A DNA stretch of 64,000 nt, from positions 1 to 64,000 of the forward strand of contig JALONH010000010.1 in NCBI GenBank assembly GCA_025455005.1, given 5' to 3'. Both the position numbers and the translations under genes were made by a program. Shown piece by piece: positions 22,819 to 36,500 of this stretch. The notes beneath the pieces were generated by a model. That model was given only the letters and a program-made list of their open reading frames with translations. It was not told the DNA's origin and ran no database searches. Source of the stretch: Cytophagaceae bacterium (lineage in GTDB: Bacteria > Bacteroidota > Bacteroidia > Cytophagales > Cytophagaceae). The stretch's first letter is position 1. Each line of letters begins with the position of its first letter.

Positions 22819-24090
22819 ATGAGAATCATCGTCGGTATTACACTGATCTGTATCACTTTTGGAATACCCCTTCCCAAAACCTTTGGTGCAGAAGTACCAG
22901 CTATCGATAAAATATATCGATCAAAAATTTATAATGTTTTAATGTATACCGCCTTAGAAGGTCCCAAAGGGAATACGGGTATAACATCCATAGAACAAAC
23001 CAATCCTTTGATACTAGAATTTGATGATTTGGGAGACGAGCCTCAAAATTACTATTTCAAACTTTACCATTGCAATGCAGATTGGTCGGTATCTTATCTA
23101 AATTCTACACAATACCTGTATGATTTTAACGAGTTTAGAATTTCAGACCGAGAAATGTCCTACGGAACACGGACACTCTATTATCGCCATACCACTGTGC
23201 TCCCTAAAGTAAAAGTAAGTGGAAATTACTTAATAAGAGTATATAGAAATTATGATGAAGATGATTTGGTCCTCACCAAACGTTTTGTAGTATATGAGCC
23301 TATTTGTCAGATTACCACAGATATTCGACGTTCAGTAGTACCGGCGGACGCCTTTCAGAAGCAACAAGTGAATTTTAGAGTAACATACGGTTCATTACAA
23401 GTAATGAATGCTTTTCAAGATTTTAAAGTAACCATACGTCAAAATTATCGTTGGGACAATGCTATAACCAAGTTACAACCTGTGTTTGTTAAGGAATATG
23501 AAAGGGCTTTGGAATATGATTTTTATAATAATGAAAATGCTTTCCCGGGATTAAATGAATATCGGTTCTTTGATATGCGCTCTGTTCAATTTAATGGAAT
23601 GTACATGGCTAAAGTTTTACGAAGTAATGAAGTGTCTCAAGTTTGGATCATGGAAGAATCAACTAGAAAAGGATTCACCTATACTTTTTATGATGATATC
23701 AACGGAGGTTTTTTACCGGAGTTGTATGAAACCAGAAATCGAACTATAGAGCCGGATTATGTGGTGGTACATTTTAAATTAAATGTTAAAGAAAAAGCGC
23801 CCGGTGAAGTCTATATAGTGGGTGGATTCAATCAGAATATAGTAGAAGAACGCTATAAAATGACTTATGATGAAACATTGAAAGCCTATATAGGTTCTTT
23901 TTGGATGAAGCAAGGATACTATAACTACATGTACACGTTAGTACAAGGAGGAAAACGAGATGATAGTTATTTTGAAGGGAGCAGTTCATTAACAGAAAAT
24001 GCCTACGACATTATCGTTTATACCCGTGTTCAAGGTGAATTATACGATAGAGCCGTAGGCTATTTCCATCAACGCTACAGAGGTCGTTAA
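22819..24090 (+). CDS. Type IX secretion plug-family protein (DUF5103)
   Basis: The protein has 423 residues. It starts with a signal peptide (IIVGITLICITFGIPL) and follows the DUF5103 layout: an N-terminal immunoglobulin-like region (IYRSKIYNVLMYTALEG, NADWSVSYLNSTQYLYDFNEF), then two beta-rich domains ending in GYFHQRYRGR. DUF5103 includes the Plug protein that closes the SprA translocon of the type IX system. It fits with the type IX substrate encoded at 30533-37408. The last codon overlaps the convergent Cas6-like gene by four bases (shared TTAA). Confidence 0.85.
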   Translation: MRIIVGITLICITFGIPLPKTFGAEVPAIDKIYRSKIYNVLMYTALEGPKGNTGITSIEQTNPLILEFDDLGDEPQNYYFKLYHCNADWSVSYLNSTQYLYDFNEFRISDREMSYGTRTLYYRHTTVLPKVKVSGNYLIRVYRNYDEDDLVLTKRFVVYEPICQITTDIRRSVVPADAFQKQQVNFRVTYGSLQVMNAFQDFKVTIRQNYRWDNAITKLQPVFVKEYERALEYDFYNNENAFPGLNEYRFFDMRSVQFNGMYMAKVLRSNEVSQVWIMEESTRKGFTYTFYDDINGGFLPELYETRNRTIEPDYVVVHFKLNVKEKAPGEVYIVGGFNQNIVEERYKMTYDETLKAYIGSFWMKQGYYNYMYTLVQGGKRDDSYFEGSSSLTENAYDIIVYTRVQGELYDRAVGYFHQRYRGR

Positions 24091-24902
24091 GCTTCCGGCG
24101 TATGTTTAGATACTATAAAAGGTAATACTCGTTTATTAGGATCAGTGTTGGCGATATCCAACATTCCAAAACCTTTATCTGCATAAAGACCAAATCCACA
24201 AGTGAATACAAATTCTTGCACTTTAGGATGAGCGTATAATTTAAAAGGGAAAGTATAACCTCTAACTTCATGTTTATCACCGGATACATAAACCGGGAAT
24301 ATACGAGCGAACTTTTTCTCTTCCCCTTTGATCTTGTTTAAATAATCTTTATCCGGTACTAATTGAAATTGAAAATACTGGGCTAATTCTTCTTGAGAGA
24401 ATCCGGCCTTTTCCATTCGGCTCATAGTAGCTTCGTATAAAGCATCAGAGAAAACATCGAGCGATGGATTAATAAAGCGTTTAGCATCTACTGAATTATC
24501 AGCAGCCGATATGATGGCTAATGGAGATAAGCAGATATATTTCATTTCATTGGTAAAATCTGGTAACTCTTCTTTATCCGCATTCAGTGGGTTAAGAACT
24601 AATTTACCAATCATAACTTGAGGTTCATCGAATATTTTCTTCACAACAAATTCGATTAATTGAGGATCGTTTGAAGAAAATATTAATGTGATTTTACTGG
24701 AATAGAAATGAAGACCATCCTTTCCAACTCTAGTTTGACCTTTTAGAGCGGAATAGTTGTAGAACGATTGCATGGATTTACCCGGACTTGAACTGAAATA
24801 CTGTTCAATGTAGGTTGACATAAAGTCATGGATTAGATATTGATGATGAAAAGGAACATAAGCTCCTTTATTCACCAAACCGAAAATTAAACGTACTCTC
24901 AC
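24087..24902 (-). CDS. cas6: Orphan Cas6-like RNA-binding/endoribonuclease protein
   Basis: The protein has 271 residues and starts with GTG at 24902, giving MRVRLIF, as in Cas6. Two Cas6 hallmarks are visible: the early segment VPFHHQYLIHDF (residues 16-27), and the C-terminal glycine-rich loop CGFGLYADKGFGML (235-248). Cas6 cuts CRISPR precursor RNA. Here no repeat array or other cas gene is present, and no His is found in residues 26-64, where the catalytic His of archaeal Cas6 would be expected (from memory of that family). It lies 52 bases after ychF, in the same direction. The fold call is good; a CRISPR role is doubtful. Confidence 0.8.
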   Translation of the reverse strand: MRVRLIFGLVNKGAYVPFHHQYLIHDFMSTYIEQYFSSSPGKSMQSFYNYSALKGQTRVGKDGLHFYSSKITLIFSSNDPQLIEFVVKKIFDEPQVMIGKLVLNPLNADKEELPDFTNEMKYICLSPLAIISAADNSVDAKRFINPSLDVFSDALYEATMSRMEKAGFSQEELAQYFQFQLVPDKDYLNKIKGEEKKFARIFPVYVSGDKHEVRGYTFPFKLYAHPKVQEFVFTCGFGLYADKGFGMLDIANTDPNKRVLPFIVSKHTPEA

Positions 24903-24954
24903 AATTACTTTTGTTTAAAAATTTAACATAGAACCCTTTGGAAGTGAAAATAGT

Positions 24955-26052
24955 TCAGACATTGAATCTAAAATGAACAATATCGCCGTCTTCTACTATA
25001 TATTCTTTTCCTTCAATGGATATTTTTCCTGCATCCCTGCAGGCAGACTCTGATTTGTATTTTTGGTAGTCTGCTAACTTTATTACTTCTGCTTTAATAA
25101 AGCCTCTTTCAAAATCGGAGTGAATCACTCCGGCTGCTGCCGGCGCTTTCCATCCTTTTCGTATTGTCCATGCCCTCACTTCTTTTACACCTGCTGTAAA
25201 ATAGGTGATTAAATCTAACAGGTGATAAGCAGCACGAATCAATTTATTTAATCCAGATTCATCTAGTCCATATTCCCCTAAGAACATTGCTTTTTCTTCC
25301 GGATCGGTAAATTCTTGTATTTGAGCTTCAATAGAGGCCGAAACGACTACTACTTGAGCATTTTCATCTTTAACAGCCGCTTTTAGTTTTTCTACCCATT
25401 CATTCCCAAGCGGAAGAGATTTTTCATCTACATTAGCGACGTAAATAACCGGCTTAATGGTTAATAAATGGATATCTTCTACTGCTTTCTTTTCTTCTTC
25501 TGTCAGGTATAAACTACGAGCGCTTTTACCCTCCATTAGGTGTTTTTTATATAACTCTAGGACAATCAGTTCCTTTTTGGCCTTAGCATCTCCGGCTTTT
25601 GCAGATCGTTCAACACGAGCAATCTTCTTTTCTACAGATTCTAAATCTTTTAATTGAAGTTCTGTGTCGATGATTTCTTTATCAGAGACCGGATCTACTT
25701 TACCGTTTACGTGAATGATATTATCGTCTGAAAAGCACCGAATCACATGTGCAATAGCATCCACTTCACGAATATTGGCTAAGAATTGATTACCCAATCC
25801 CTCCCCTTTGCTGGCTCCTTTTACAAGACCGGCAATATCTACAAACTCCATGATGGCCGGAATGGTTTTTTCCGGATGAACCAATTCTTCCAACGCTTCA
25901 ATCCTTGTGTCCGGAACCGTTACAACCCCTATGTTTGGTTCAATCGTACAAAACGGATAATTTGCTGCTTCAGCTTTTGCGTTTGATAAAGCGTTAAATA
26001 AAGTAGACTTCCCTACATTTGGAAGTCCGACAATTCCACATTTTAAACCCAT
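24955..26052 (-). CDS. ychF: Redox-regulated ATPase YchF
   Basis: The protein has 365 residues of the Obg-like GTPase/ATPase family. It has GIVGLPNVGKSTLFNAL (P-loop), a DIAGLVKGASKGEGLGNQF switch region, the altered nucleotide-specificity motif ANVDEK (not NKxD, as in YchF) and a C-terminal TGS domain that ends IEGKEYIVEDGDIVHFRFN. YchF binds ribosomes and prefers ATP. It has its own -7 box upstream and is followed by the Cas6-like gene. Confidence 0.97.
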   Translation of the reverse strand: MGLKCGIVGLPNVGKSTLFNALSNAKAEAANYPFCTIEPNIGVVTVPDTRIEALEELVHPEKTIPAIMEFVDIAGLVKGASKGEGLGNQFLANIREVDAIAHVIRCFSDDNIIHVNGKVDPVSDKEIIDTELQLKDLESVEKKIARVERSAKAGDAKAKKELIVLELYKKHLMEGKSARSLYLTEEEKKAVEDIHLLTIKPVIYVANVDEKSLPLGNEWVEKLKAAVKDENAQVVVVSASIEAQIQEFTDPEEKAMFLGEYGLDESGLNKLIRAAYHLLDLITYFTAGVKEVRAWTIRKGWKAPAAAGVIHSDFERGFIKAEVIKLADYQKYKSESACRDAGKISIEGKEYIVEDGDIVHFRFNV

Positions 26053-26164: not shown

Positions 26165-26497
26165 TTAATCCCATTTCAACTCGGTATCACCTTCAGCGTC
26201 ATCTTCCTCTCTAGAATCGAAAGAGGAAAAATCAACATCCGGAAGTAACTCTGTTTTCACGTGATCGACCGTTTGGCGTAACGCATCCATGAATTTCTCA
26301 AAATCCTCTTTGTATAAGAAAATTTTATGTTTTTCATAGTAGAAACCCTCATCTTTATAGCGCTTCTTACTTTCTGTAATGGTCAAATAGTAGTCGTTTG
26401 ACCGAGTTGACTTAATGTCAAAGAAATACGTTCTTTTTCCTGCACGCACTCGCTGAGAATAAATTTCTCCGCTGTCTTTTTCTTTTCCTTCTTCCAC
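26165..26497 (-). CDS. DUF3276 PUR-domain nucleic-acid-binding protein
   Basis: The protein has 110 residues with a GTG start at 26497. Upstream frame is open for several codons but no ATG occurs. It has GKRTYFFDIKSTRSNDYYL and KHKIFLYKEDFEKFMDALRQ, hallmarks of the Bacteroidota PUR-alpha-like DUF3276 family, which binds single-stranded nucleic acid. A strongly acidic C-terminal tail (SREEDDAEGDTELKWD) follows. It stands between ychF and a divergent DUF58 gene. Confidence 0.88.
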   Translation of the reverse strand: MEEGKEKDSGEIYSQRVRAGKRTYFFDIKSTRSNDYYLTITESKKRYKDEGFYYEKHKIFLYKEDFEKFMDALRQTVDHVKTELLPDVDFSSFDSREEDDAEGDTELKWD

Positions 26498-30532: not shown

Positions 30533-33500
30533 ATGCTATCCATACCAACATATCGTAGGTTCGAGTGTAAACGTATTATAATACCACTACTACTCTTTTG
30601 GTCCTTCTTATTTTTGCCAATCGAAAAAAGTAGTGCACAATGTACTTCACCATTATTAAATTGGACCGTTACCCCTACCAATTTAAGTTGTAATAATGAT
30701 AATTCAGGTAGTATATCGGTTTCGGTAACCGGAACCTTTCCATCTTATACGTATTCTTTGTTTGGTGTAGTGACAGGGCCTGTTATAATACCCAATCATC
30801 CATTTAATAATTACACATTTTCCAATTTACCAGCTGATAATAATTATTTATTAGTTGTACAGGTTCCTTTGGGTGGCAATATATTCGCAGTGTGCAATAC
30901 AAACGTTGTTTTGTTAGAACCTCCTCCTTTATCTATTAACTTACAGAATCAAACAAACAATATTTGTTTTGGACAATCCAATGGAAGCATTGATATAGAT
31001 GTGAGTGGGGGGACACCCGCTCCGCCCTATACATATAGTTGGACGAATGGAGCGACAACACAAGATATAAGCTCTCTTCCTAATGGAACTTATACAGTCA
31101 CTGTTCGAGATGGAAATAATTGTCCTACAACATCAAACTATACCATAAATTCCCCTTCCGTTCTTACGGCAACAGCTTCGGGTACCTCTCCTAGTTGCTC
31201 CGGTGGAACAAATGGAAGCATCGATTTGAATGTAACCGGTGGAACAGTACCCTATACTTACCTATGGAATACTGGAGCAGTATCTGAGGATATCTCTGGA
31301 CTTGCAGCTGGAAATTACTCGGTTACTGTAACCGATATAAATGGTTGTACTCAAATAGCCAATGTTACACTCACCAATCCAACTGCACTTTCATTAAGTT
31401 CAACTACCACCTCTCCAAGTTGTTTTGGCAGTTCTAATGGCAGTATCGATCTAACCGTAAATGGTGGAACAGCACCCTACAATTACCTATGGGATACCGG
31501 TTCAACAAATGAGGACATCAGTGGGTTGGCGGCCGGAAGTTATACTGTTACCGTGACGGATGCCAATGGATGTACTGCCAATCGTTCGATTACGTTAACT
31601 AATCCCTCCAGTCTTAATCTTTCCATACTGCAAACCAATGTAACGTGTTTTGGAGGCACGAATGGTTCTATCAATTTAACTGTCAGCGGAGGAACTCCCG
31701 GGTATATTTATGTATGGTCCAATGGAAGTGTAAGTGAAGATCTTAATGCATTAACTGCCGGAAATTATACCGTTACTGTAACCGATTTGAATAGTTGTAC
31801 AGCTAATGCAACCTACACCATAGTAGAACCCACAGCCATTCAAATCAGCGGTAGTATAACACCTGTTGCGTGTTTTGGAGGGAATACCGGCGCAATCAAT
31901 GTTACAGTTTCCGGAGGAACCGGTAGTTATACCTATACATGGTCAAACGGAGCTATAACAGAAGATATTACTACTGTCGGATCGGGAAGTTATACGTTAA
32001 CCGTACAAGACGCTGCCTTGTGTACAGCGAATTATAGTGGGACTATATCATCTCCTACAACCCTAATTATTAATTCCGTACCAACACCTATAGCCTGTTT
32101 TGGTGGAAATACCGGGTCGATTGATGTGACAGTCAGCGGTGGCACTGCTCCTTATAGTTACTTATGGAATAATGGAAATACAAGTCAAGATTTAAGTAAT
32201 GTCGTTGCCGGAAATTATACTGTTTCCATAACGGATGCTTCCGGATGTACCGGTTCTACCTCGGCACTTATTACACAACCTTCAGCAGCACTTTCTGTAT
32301 CAAGCGTAACTACAGCAACATCTTGTTTTGGAGGTACAAATGGAGCTATAAACTTAACTGTTTCAGGTGGAACCGCACCTTATACCTTTAATTGGAGTAA
32401 TGGTTCAACCAGCGAAGACATCACCGGGTTAAATAGTGGAAGTTATTCCCTTACCATTACCGATGCTGCAGGATGTACCTTTTCTTCTTCCTATACGGTT
32501 TCTCAACCTCCAGCCCTATCCATTAATGGGGTAATCATAGAAGTCCGTTGTACAGGTGGTTCTACCGGAGGTATTGATGCAACGGTTTCCGGTGGTGTAG
32601 CGCCTTACAGTTATAGTTGGTCTACCGGTTCTATTACTGAAGATATAACAGGGCTTTCAGCTGCTGCTTATACACTTACCGTTGTTGATGCTAACAGTTG
32701 TTCCACTGCTCAATCGTTTACTGTAACCGAACCGACTATCTTAACGATTAGCGGTACCATTACGAATACGTCATGTACCGGGGGGAACAACGGCAGCATA
32801 AACACTACAACCCTTGGTGGAACGGCACCCTATACCTACGTATGGTCAACTGGTGCGACTACTTCGTCTATCTCTGGCTTGGCAGTTGGTAGTTACACGG
32901 TAACCGTTACCGATAGCCGTTTATGCACCACAACTGCTACCTATAATGTTAGTGCTCCTTCCCCAATAGTATTATCCCATACATCAGTCAATGAACGTTG
33001 TTCTAACAGTTCGGATGGAAGTATTAATTTATCTGTATCCGGAGGTTCTTTACCTTACAGCTTTTCATGGAGTAATGGCGCCACTACAGAAGATATTAAC
33101 AGTTTGGATGCCGGTACTTATACCGTTTTAGTTTCTGATGCACAAGGATGTTCACAAAACAGAGCAATCCTTATCAGCTCTCCTCCGGCATTAAATGTAA
33201 GCCTTACTCCTAACCATATTACCTGTTTTGGTGCAGGTAATGGAAGTATAAGTACAACAGCGAGCGGTGGCACTAGTCCATACACCTATTTATGGAGCAA
33301 TGGTTCCACTGCAGAAGATCCAATTAATCTGGGCCCGGGTAGTTTTAGTCTTACTGTAACGGACAACAATGGATGTATAATTACTAGCAATACCACTATC
33401 ACACAACCATCCGCGATTGTAATCACTCGTACCATAACAAATGTTACATGTAATGGAGGAAACAATGGTGCGATTAATCTTACGCTTTCCGGCGGAGTAG

Positions 33501-36500
33501 GACCATTTTTATATGTTTGGTCCAATGGTGCTACAACCGAAGATATAAGTGGACTTATAGCCGGTAATTACACCGTAACCATTACTGATGCAAATGGTTG
33601 TAGTAGTAATGCCAGTTATAATGTAATCGAACCCTCCCCACTTCTTATCATAGCGTCTCAAACCGATGCCGATTGTAGTGGTGGAACAAATGGTAGTATT
33701 ACGATAACTTCAGTAACAGGAGGCACAGGACCGTTCAATTATGCTTGGTCTACTGGGGCTAACACTGCTTCCATTTCGAACTTGAGTATTGGCAGCTACA
33801 GTGTAGTCGTTACAGATGCTAATGGATGTATTCAAAACGGTACCTATTCGGTTACCACACCTACTTCTATGATCGTGAGTGCTTCGACCACGTCCCCTGT
33901 CTGTTTTAGTGGAAATACCGGAGTTATCAATATTTCAATCAGTGGAGGCACAGCTCCCTTCACCTATTTATGGAATACAGGAGCAACGACAGAAGATCTA
34001 AATGCAATACCTGCAGGAAGTTATTCTGTAACTGTAACAGATGCTAATCTGTGTGCAACAACAGAAAATTTTAATCTGACGGCGCCAAGTGCACTACTTT
34101 TAAATGCTATAACTACCTCCATTTTATGCAATGGTGGAAACAATGGCGCTATTAATACGACTGTTACAGGAGGAACAGCACCTTATGCCTATGCCTGGAG
34201 TAACGGTGCTACTACCGAAGATTTGACCAATTTAAGTGTTGGCAGTTATACATTAACCGTAACGGATGTAAATGCTTGTGTCAACAATCGTACGTTTACC
34301 ATAACCGAACCCGGTATATTAAGTTCGTCCGGTGTTATCACCAATAGCAGTTGTAATGGAGGTTCGAATGGGAGTATTAATGTAAGCGCTACCGGAGGAA
34401 CGGCTCCATATACGTATCTATGGTCTACTGGCTCTACTTCGGAAGACTTAAGTAGTTTAGCTGCGGGTTCATATTCCGTAACCATCAGTGATAATAACAC
34501 TTGTACAACTACAAACAGTTTCACTATTTCAGAACCTAATGCTTTTCAAATTACAGCGAACATAGGAAATGCTAGTTGTGGTGGAGGCAATGATGGAAGT
34601 GTTTTAATTACATCTGTAACCGGTGGAACAGGACCATATAGCTACTTATGGACGACGGGCGCAACAACTGCCGGTATTACTAATGTAACGGTTGGGACTT
34701 ATACAGTATCTGTTACAGATAATGCCGGTTGTACAAATGACTCTACCTTCACTGTAATAACCCCAAGTACTATGCTCCTTACTGCTGTAGTATCCGATAT
34801 ATCTTGTGCAGGAGGTACTAACGGCGCTATTAATCTGAGTGTTAGTGGAGGAAATAGTCCCTACACCTATAGTTGGTCTAACGGGGCTATTACTGAAGAT
34901 ATTTCGACTTTAAGTGTTGGTACCTATACTGTAATTGTAACCGATGCCGCTTTATGTTCTCAATCTGCTAATTTTTCTGTAAACTCAGCGGCACCAATAC
35001 TCATTACTTTATCCCCGACTTCTGTATTATGTAATGGTCAAAATAATGGAAGCATAAATGCAACTGTTACTGGAGGAGCCCTTCCTCTTACCTATAGTTG
35101 GTCTAATGGAGCCACAACAGAAGATATCAATGGCTTGATTGCAGGAACGTATTCCTTAACGGTTACCGACAACGGAGGTTGTACCAACATACAAAGTGTA
35201 CCGGTGAATGAACCTGGATTATTGGTAACCATATTATCCTCAACAGACGCCTCGTGTAACGGAGTTGCAAATGGAAGCGCTACGCCGAGTGTAAGCGGAG
35301 GAACGGCACCTTACACTTATTTATGGTCTAATGGAAATACAGCATCAACACAAACAACATTAGCAGCCGGTTCCTATTCTGTAACCGTAACTGATGCAAG
35401 AGGTTGTAATTCATCTGATTTTACTACAATAGCAAATGGACCTGCTATAACCGGCAGTGCAACAGCCAGCCCCGCCATTATATGTGCTGCATCCGGCGCA
35501 ACCATAACAGCATCTTTAGATGCTGCTTATACCGCAGGTTTAACGCCCTATTCTTTCAATAATGGCCTATCCTTTCAAACCGGGGCAACCTATACTATTC
35601 CTTCTGTTTTATCGGATAGTATAGTGTCCGTAGTTGTTCAAGATATTAATGGATGTACCAGTTTACCCATTCCGGTTAATTTAAGTACAAAAAAAATAAC
35701 CGCTACTGTAAACATTACCAATACCCCTACATGTGCGGGTGACACAGATGGAAGTATAGAAGTGATTGTTACCGGTTCATCAACCGGCTTTACCTATTCT
35801 TTAGATGGAGGCGCATTCCAAAATTCACCTATTTTTAATTCGATTAGTGGAGGGTCTCATGCTGTCATTATTAATGATGGAACAGGTTGTAATGCTTCTT
35901 ATAGCATTCTATTGATAGAACCTCCGGTTTTATCAATAGGCATTGTATCTACCACACAAATAAGTGGCTGTTTTGGAAATACCAACGGACAAATTGAAGT
36001 AACTGTCAATGGAGGAACACCATCCTATACCTTTATTTATACCGGTGGTTCCATAGGAACAGATAGCGTATTTAGAAATTTATCTGCGGGAAGTTATACC
36101 GTAACTGTTACGGACATCAATGGTTGTACTGCCTCTGTTTCTACATCATTAACTCAACCTGCCGGAATTGATGCAGCAGCCATTGTAGCTACTATTAATA
36201 ATGTTAATTGCCCCGGTCGCGACGAAGGTTCTATCGCATTATCCAATGTTACCGGAGGTACTGCTCCTTATTCGTATGCATTAGGAAGTACAAGCAATAC
36301 ATCAGGAAGTTTTAATAATCTGATTGCAGGAAATTATTCTATAACGATAACAGATGGTAATACATGTAGTATTGGTTATCCTTTCGTGATTACAGAACCC
36401 AATCCAATTATATTCACAGCTATAGTTACCCGACCCGCAACGTGTACCGATCCGGATGGAATAGTAGAATTCATCTCTGTAAGTGGAGGTAATCCGGGAT

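Follow-up and report, generated by a model that had tools for sequence, protein, structure and literature searches.

A 64,000-nt stretch of DNA from Cytophagaceae bacterium (GCA_025455005.1, JALONH010000010.1, positions 1 to 64,000, forward strand), here called the window, carries a cas6-like gene that, judging from profiles and a tree, is an ordinary inherited gene of much of Cytophagales and constitutes a lineage of its own. The gene appears to be separable from CRISPR, and its product has a predicted Cas6 fold. What is the biological function of this protein? We lean toward the reading that it is a domesticated Cas6, vertically inherited in Cytophagales and descended from a CRISPR-type Cas6, that would work without CRISPR and bind cellular RNA without canonical cutting. 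Among the possible modes of action, binding without canonical cutting is the one that we consider moderately probable, followed by cutting through a rebuilt site, which is unlikely, and by service to CRISPR in trans, which is more doubtful still. The features of the locus are collected in Table 1.

Table 1. Features of the cas6-like locus, in window coordinates.
Feature	Position	Strand	Basis or remark
cas6-like gene, Cytophagales resident lineage	24087..24902	(-)	271 aa, GTG start; ORF listing, profiles, tree, model
GTG start codon	24900..24902	(-)	start-codon count over 101 distinct orthologues
F-H-H-Q lineage motif, codons 18-21, immediately before helix 1	24840..24851	(-)	residue counts, model
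Glycine-rich loop CGFGLYADKGFGML of Cas6/RAMP proteins, codons 235-248	24159..24200	(-)	translation, residue counts
52-nt gap separating ychF from the cas6-like gene	24903..24954	(-)	
ychF, co-directional, directly upstream of the cas6-like gene	24955..26052	(-)	
Type 9 secretion plug-domain protein, convergent neighbour	22819..24090	(+)	4-nt overlap of 3' ends
DUF3276 protein, farther upstream, conserved block	26165..26497	(-)	

The first-pass annotation proposed that the open reading frame encodes a relative of Cas6, and both family profiles and the predicted fold confirm this relationship. The Pfam model Cas_Cas6_C (PF01881) matches the protein at 2.6e-17, with 64.2 bits against a cut-off of 23, and the PADLOC Cas6b model at 7.1e-25. 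The NCBIfam model TIGR01877 matches at 2e-14 with 54.5 bits, about 4 under its curated cut-off of 58.65; it is also matched by all 23 aligned relatives and is the sole NCBIfam model listed at E <= 0.001. Single-sequence matches to the PDB sequences 3ufc, 5yi6, 3qjp and 3qjj are weak (1e-4 to 0.0065) and strengthen to 2e-14 to 1e-11 in a profile search. An AlphaFold2 model of the protein was built on 23 sequences (mean pLDDT 86.6, pTM 0.85). Structure prediction had been suggested as a check, and Cas6 crystal structures are the top matches to the model, at Z 24. Foldseek places 3ufc first (E 1.2e-17), then 3qjj, 5yi6 and 3i4h, and the VIA-align Z values are 24.4 for 5yi6 and 24.0 for both 3i4h and 3ufc, with the next drop in the list occurring after 23.3, down to 14.1. 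The model aligns with 5yi6 over 229 residues at an rmsd of 2.6, so that the predicted two-RAMP Cas6 fold spans the whole protein. Of the two sequence marks that had been ascribed to Cas6 endoribonucleases, the glycine-rich loop CGFGLYADKGFGML is present, whereas the early F-H-H-Q segment proves to be a hallmark of this lineage and no general Cas6 motif.

The best 80 of 369 confirmed relatives, from a collection with record titles, were taken as named loci, and in 78 of these 80 the gene immediately upstream, on the same strand, is ychF. The distance between the two genes, match to match, ranges from 46 to 436 nt in the named loci, where a DUF3276 gene, a type 9 secretion plug protein gene and an ABC-F gene are also often found nearby. 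In the other two loci (L096 and L115), the stretch examined contains no ychF, and the gene, in a different setting, remains an open frame. Thus, the cas6-like gene does not need ychF as its neighbour. The earlier proposal of a Cas6 fold kept outside CRISPR and beside ychF is nonetheless supported over much of Cytophagales, the tie to YchF being one of gene neighbourhood, in a protein that is strongly conserved and has lost the PfuCas6-type site.

A match occurs in 42 of 59 genomes of a first sample and, among these, in 18 of 19 genomes of the host's own family (the window's genome, G000, included in both), the sole miss in the family being a 69%-complete genome. Across the phylum, 47 of 296 genomes match at E <= 0.001, and the scores split into two groups. 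The top group comprises eight genomes at 379-425 bits, all from the host's own order; every match beyond these eight scores at most 81 bits, and no strong match occurs outside Cytophagales among the 296. Within a Cytophagales sample, 117 of 194 genomes match, 115 of them at >= 226 bits, which we count as the orthologue. It is present in 17 of the 17 own-family genomes inside this sample, seven of which hold Cas1. The orthologue is strong in Cytophagales families f1, f2, f4, f5, f7, f9, f15-f20 and f22 and absent from the sampled members of f11, f13 and f21, among other families. Record titles among the best 80 of 369 include Cytophaga, Sporocytophaga, Fulvivirga, Belliella, Echinicola, Cecembia and Rhodocytophaga, all of which we take to belong to Cytophagales, besides others; a few read only Bacteroidetes or Bacteroidia, and two (L088 and L089) Chitinophagaceae.

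In a tree of 44 Cas6 rows, a branch with 100/100 support separates 20 rows of the lineage from 24 other Bacteroidota Cas6 rows, which were chosen by their similarity to the resident lineage. The lineage stem measures 1.67 changes per site, and mean identity between the lineage and the 24 outside rows is approximately 22%. The tree is unrooted, midpoint rooting having been used just for drawing, and descent from a CRISPR-type Cas6 is the direction of change that we infer. Two of the outside loci (L172 and L173) carry an array and Cas1 within the same stretch. For ten of the remaining 22, one neighbour each was scanned, yielding three type III signalling or effector proteins, one CorA-like protein and six without a match.

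The catalytic residues of P. furiosus Cas6 are Tyr31, His46 and Lys52 (PMC3652601, accessible sections). Their columns were set by alignment with the PfuCas6 fragment over 100 lineage members and the 24 outside rows, of which the truncated row L052 was excluded from the triad count. All 23 intact outside rows have the complete Y31/H46/K52 triad, versus none of the 100 lineage members. All 100 are gapped at the His46 column, no member has Tyr in the Tyr31 column, and only two have Lys in the Lys52 column. The compared stretch, which opens immediately before the Tyr column and closes immediately after the Lys column, has a length of 19 to 26 residues among lineage members (24 residues in 76 of the 100), as against 30 in PfuCas6 and 36 or 38 in the outside rows. 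Some His lies within the shortened stretch in 14 of the 100 members, at positions that vary in the ten printed. The first-pass statement that residues 26-64 contain no His is correct for the translation. The absence of the triad rules out a PfuCas6-type site only, as other Cas6 subfamilies rely on other residues.

A comparison of conserved residues, also proposed beforehand, gave a second result alongside the loss of the triad: with duplicates merged, the first residue excluded and L010, L072 and L091 dropped because the match ran past a stop codon, 48 residues are invariant over 100 lineage sequences and 58 are conserved at >= 99%. All 100 members have F18, H20 and Q21, and 97 have H19. Of the 24 outside rows, 23 have Asn at position 19, and at position 20 the rows vary (Asn 9, Cys 4, Thr 4, Tyr 3, His 2). 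R4, F18, H20, Q21, K54, G55, Q56, S152, K196, K197, Y216, T217 and D249 are invariant in the lineage and mostly different outside it; R200 and R214 are likewise invariant and mostly replaced by Lys outside. In the glycine-rich loop, G236, G244 and G246 occur in 100 of 100 members and G238 in 99, and S126-P127 and F220 are common to the lineage and all 24 outside rows. Because invariant residues are particular to the lineage, the gene is not decayed and is under constraints of its own. We regard H20/Q21, K54/Q56, K196/K197, R200 and Y216 as a candidate RNA-contact or reaction site.

Could these residues form a new active site? The cas6-like protein may still be a domesticated endoribonuclease that cuts a specific cellular RNA via a rebuilt site composed of H20 or H19 together with K54, K196/K197 or Y216. 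Such a site would draw on residues (H20, Q21, K54, Q56, K196, K197, Y216) that are fixed in the lineage and mostly other residues outside, along with the invariant R200 and R214. In the model, helix 1 comprises residues 21-38, which places H20 just ahead of it, and an H-Q-x-L stretch is presumably common to Cas6e, Cas6f and the resident lineage. Cas6e and Cas6f hold a catalytic His inside helix 1 (PMC3652601, in part), and by analogy the invariant H20 before helix 1 may confer residual activity on the cas6-like protein. Cas6 active sites do vary, with a helix-1 His in Cas6e and Cas6f and none in SsoCas6 (excerpts of PMC3652601 and PMC3727216). However, none of the three residues of the closest catalytic structure survives, the stretch that would bear the His is shorter, and the His that P. 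furiosus Cas6 has at the H20 position lies outside its triad. We consider cutting through a rebuilt site unlikely, albeit the strongest of the alternatives to RNA binding without canonical cutting.

The relation of the gene to CRISPR was followed at three levels, the first of which is the window itself. It had been described as devoid of a CRISPR array; accordingly, no CRISPR-like repeat was detected in it, and the Cas1 gene of the genome sits on contig C2 instead. The only direct-repeat family listed for the window lies at 30995-35127 and consists of 14 copies of 74 nt, spaced by 225, 450 or 453 nt with 61-100% similarity to the reference copy; they may belong to a repeat-rich protein. Rfam over the window returned a tRNA only and no candidate RNA target of the cas6-like protein.

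The genome of the window (2.94 Mb, 45 contigs, 99.6% complete) does contain CRISPR. A type II locus on C2 encodes Cas2, Cas1 and a 1379-aa Cas9, and a 46-nt repeat, in 77 copies, is split across two contig ends (C2, as L002 1-177, and C34, 1-5770). The only Cas1 match in the genome is the one beside Cas9, outside the window; profile searches of the whole genome found no RAMP or Cas5 match, and its one PF01881 gene is the cas6-like gene, which is not beside an array or a type I, III or IV cas operon. Processing of type II arrays relies on RNase III and tracrRNA (PMC3727216 and PMC6452270, available text), so that no component detected in this genome has a known requirement for Cas6. Dependence of CRISPR elsewhere in the genome on this protein, the result named beforehand as refuting domestication, was not observed within the reach of these searches, the CRISPR system detected being type II. 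Upstream of cas9, at L002 8542-9195, there is also a 155-nt repeat in three copies that are 68-100% alike, with starts 246 and 253 nt apart.

Across the 194 genomes of the order, the searches detected Cas1 in 81, RAMPs in 28 and Cas5 in 16. A search for the ychF-cas6 pair in strains without CRISPR had been recommended; among the 115 genomes with the orthologue, neither Cas1 nor RAMP nor Cas5 was detected in 47, as judged by three Pfam models for cas genes, among which that for Cas5, given the few genomes found, is probably insensitive. Two of the genomes with the orthologue and no match to these markers (G012 and G022) are single contigs. No class 1 marker (Cas1 >= 200 bits, a threshold of our own, RAMP or Cas5) is present in 75 of the 115, and 69 of those 75 hold a single PF01881 gene. 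Cas1 at >= 270 bits, provisionally taken as I-B-like under score bands of our own, occurs in 22 orthologue genomes, 21 of which have an additional PF01881 gene. Genomes with Cas1 carry the orthologue more often than those without it (65 of 81 versus 50 of 113; odds ratio 5.1, Fisher p 4e-7, uncorrected for kinship). This enrichment is as expected of a CRISPR-linked gene and counts against a domesticated RNA binder. An equal excess is seen with type II-like Cas1 (29 of 34, odds ratio 5.0, again uncorrected for kinship), and type II-like Cas1 systems need no Cas6.

Enrichment in Cas1-bearing genomes would also suit a resident Cas6 that serves CRISPR by processing arrays in trans for transient type III systems. 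Consistent with such a service, 13 of 16 orthologue genomes that have RAMP genes and no Cas1 >= 270 bits are without another PF01881 gene, and in one genome (G053; L167 3268-6963 and 15673-16539) a CRISPR array and cas1 are located approximately 11 kb and 9 kb, respectively, from the cas6-like gene. However, a local Cas6 of the PADLOC family PDLC01381, which PF01881 misses, was present in three of the five type III genomes opened (L168, L169 and L171), the triad is lost, and none of the three markers was detected in 47 of the 115 orthologue genomes. Service in trans is improbable. No local Cas6 was found among the three ORFs scanned in each of L170 and L167, the latter stretch containing an array and cas1 without RAMP genes. 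The type III loci of L168, L169 and L171, with their divergent Cas6, are cases in which PF01881 listed the resident orthologue alone. A functionless relic or a hitchhiker next to ychF, as the mostly constant neighbourhood might suggest, is very improbable given the residue conservation over 100 sequences (48 invariant, 58 at >= 99%) and the open frame retained away from ychF in L096 and L115.

The start of the gene is conserved in an unusual form. Among 101 distinct orthologues (matches at >= 35% identity, duplicates merged), the start codon is GTG in 53, TTG in 41, ATG in 5 and TTA in 2, so that GTG or TTG accounts for 94 of 101, and 99 of the 101 have no upstream in-frame ATG. The ychF start is ATG in 91 of the 91 readable of the same loci (four unreadable). 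AGA or AGG follows as the second codon in 100 of 102 sequences. Conservation of a weak start may reflect selection for low expression or translational feedback. At DUF3276 (window 26165-26497), GTG stands at the aligned N terminus, a putative start, in 62 of 63 readable loci (36 unreadable).

Leaders from the gap between ychF and the cas6-like gene were aligned by MAFFT in groups of 31 and 30 and folded by RNAalifold with 50 column shuffles. The group of 31 shows no conserved structure (0.0, as in the shuffles), and the group of 30 shows one weak 6-bp stem (-1.55 versus 0.0 in the shuffles), located within the first codons, where the sequence is nearly invariant. An RNA element in the gap was dropped as a candidate on these energies, the sole stem being inside the coding start. 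In Cyclobacteriaceae, the leaders share a conserved promoter-like block, TAnnTTTG, which we take to be a promoter motif, and a T-rich stretch ahead of the start. Identity of the 45-nt leaders is 0.63 for cas6, 0.58 for ychF and 0.49 for DUF3276, a difference too small to build on. Synonymous conservation is raised at codons 1-15 and 46-75 in 30 Cyclobacteriaceae sequences; order-wide, over 102 sequences, the excess is highest at codon 2 (0.34) and at most 0.22 elsewhere. A raised synonymous conservation is also seen at the start of ychF.

How may a domesticated, RNA-binding Cas6 have arisen? A CRISPR-type Cas6 would have been fixed beside ychF in an ancestor of much of Cytophagales. It would then have lost its crRNA-cutting site, as the His-bearing stretch shortened, and kept the two-RAMP fold and the glycine-rich loop. 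The triad-less Cas6 would have taken on one or a few cellular RNAs, and it probably binds these specifically, controlling or protecting them rather than cutting CRISPR repeats. Owing to their slow turnover, Cas6 proteins are arguably RNA chaperones as much as enzymes (PMC3652601, in the portion available), and this view fits a change of role from crRNA cutter to RNA binder. The weak start codon may hold the protein at a low level, perhaps through feedback on its own mRNA. More tentatively, we envisage an exapted Cas6 that acts as a regulator of cellular RNA, is co-inherited with the ribosome-associated ATPase YchF and is held scarce by a near-obligatory non-ATG start, perhaps with control of its own mRNA; it would apparently be the first housekeeping Cas6, although this complete picture is rather unlikely to hold in every part.

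The present analysis documents decoupling from CRISPR, loss of the triad and spread over an order. If an RNA target is found, the gene would show how an RNA processor of adaptive immunity can become a housekeeping RNA-binding protein. Caution is also warranted in annotation, as family models label such genes CRISPR endoribonuclease despite the absence of a CRISPR marker and the loss of the known active site. The role of the cas6-like gene can be put to a direct test in relatives that lack CRISPR markers.

Non-CRISPR relatives of Cas1, Cas4 and Cas9 have already been described (PMC6452270, PMC3150331 and PMC5704561, partial texts). For Cas6, no description of a widespread CRISPR-independent form was found among the matches listed in full-text literature, which includes few subscription papers and leaves bioRxiv outside its scope, and the main text of PMC5294841 on isolated cas loci, in its accessible part, does not mention Cas6. 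Catalytic Cas6/Cas6b proteins of types I-B and III (PfuCas6, 3i4h/3pkm, and Bacteroidota Cas6) share the fold, the glycine-rich loop and the PF01881 match with the resident lineage, which differs in being without Tyr-His-Lys, in having its own locus without CRISPR and in forming a separate clade. SsoCas6 is active although it has no catalytic His, and the resident lineage is likewise without the triad His; however, SsoCas6 retains the catalytic Lys and processes CRISPR RNA (PMC3652601, excerpt), whereas the Lys column of the lineage holds Lys in 2 of 100.

The nearest known kind to the resident lineage is the non-catalytic Cas6 of Pyrococcus. PfuCas6nc (3ufc), a non-catalytic P. furiosus Cas6 paralogue (PMC3652601, as far as accessible), and PH0350 (3qjj) are the top Foldseek structures and have the two-RAMP fold and the glycine-rich loop in common with the cas6-like protein. 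They also share with it a Cas6 fold without the PfuCas6 catalytic residues, seen here in a predicted model. Identity to the cas6-like protein is only 17-19%, and between helix 1 and the next strand 3ufc has a few more residues than the resident lineage in the profile alignment. The hosts of PfuCas6nc and PH0350 presumably carry CRISPR. Unlike these two proteins, the resident gene is spread over a bacterial order, including genomes without a detected CRISPR marker.
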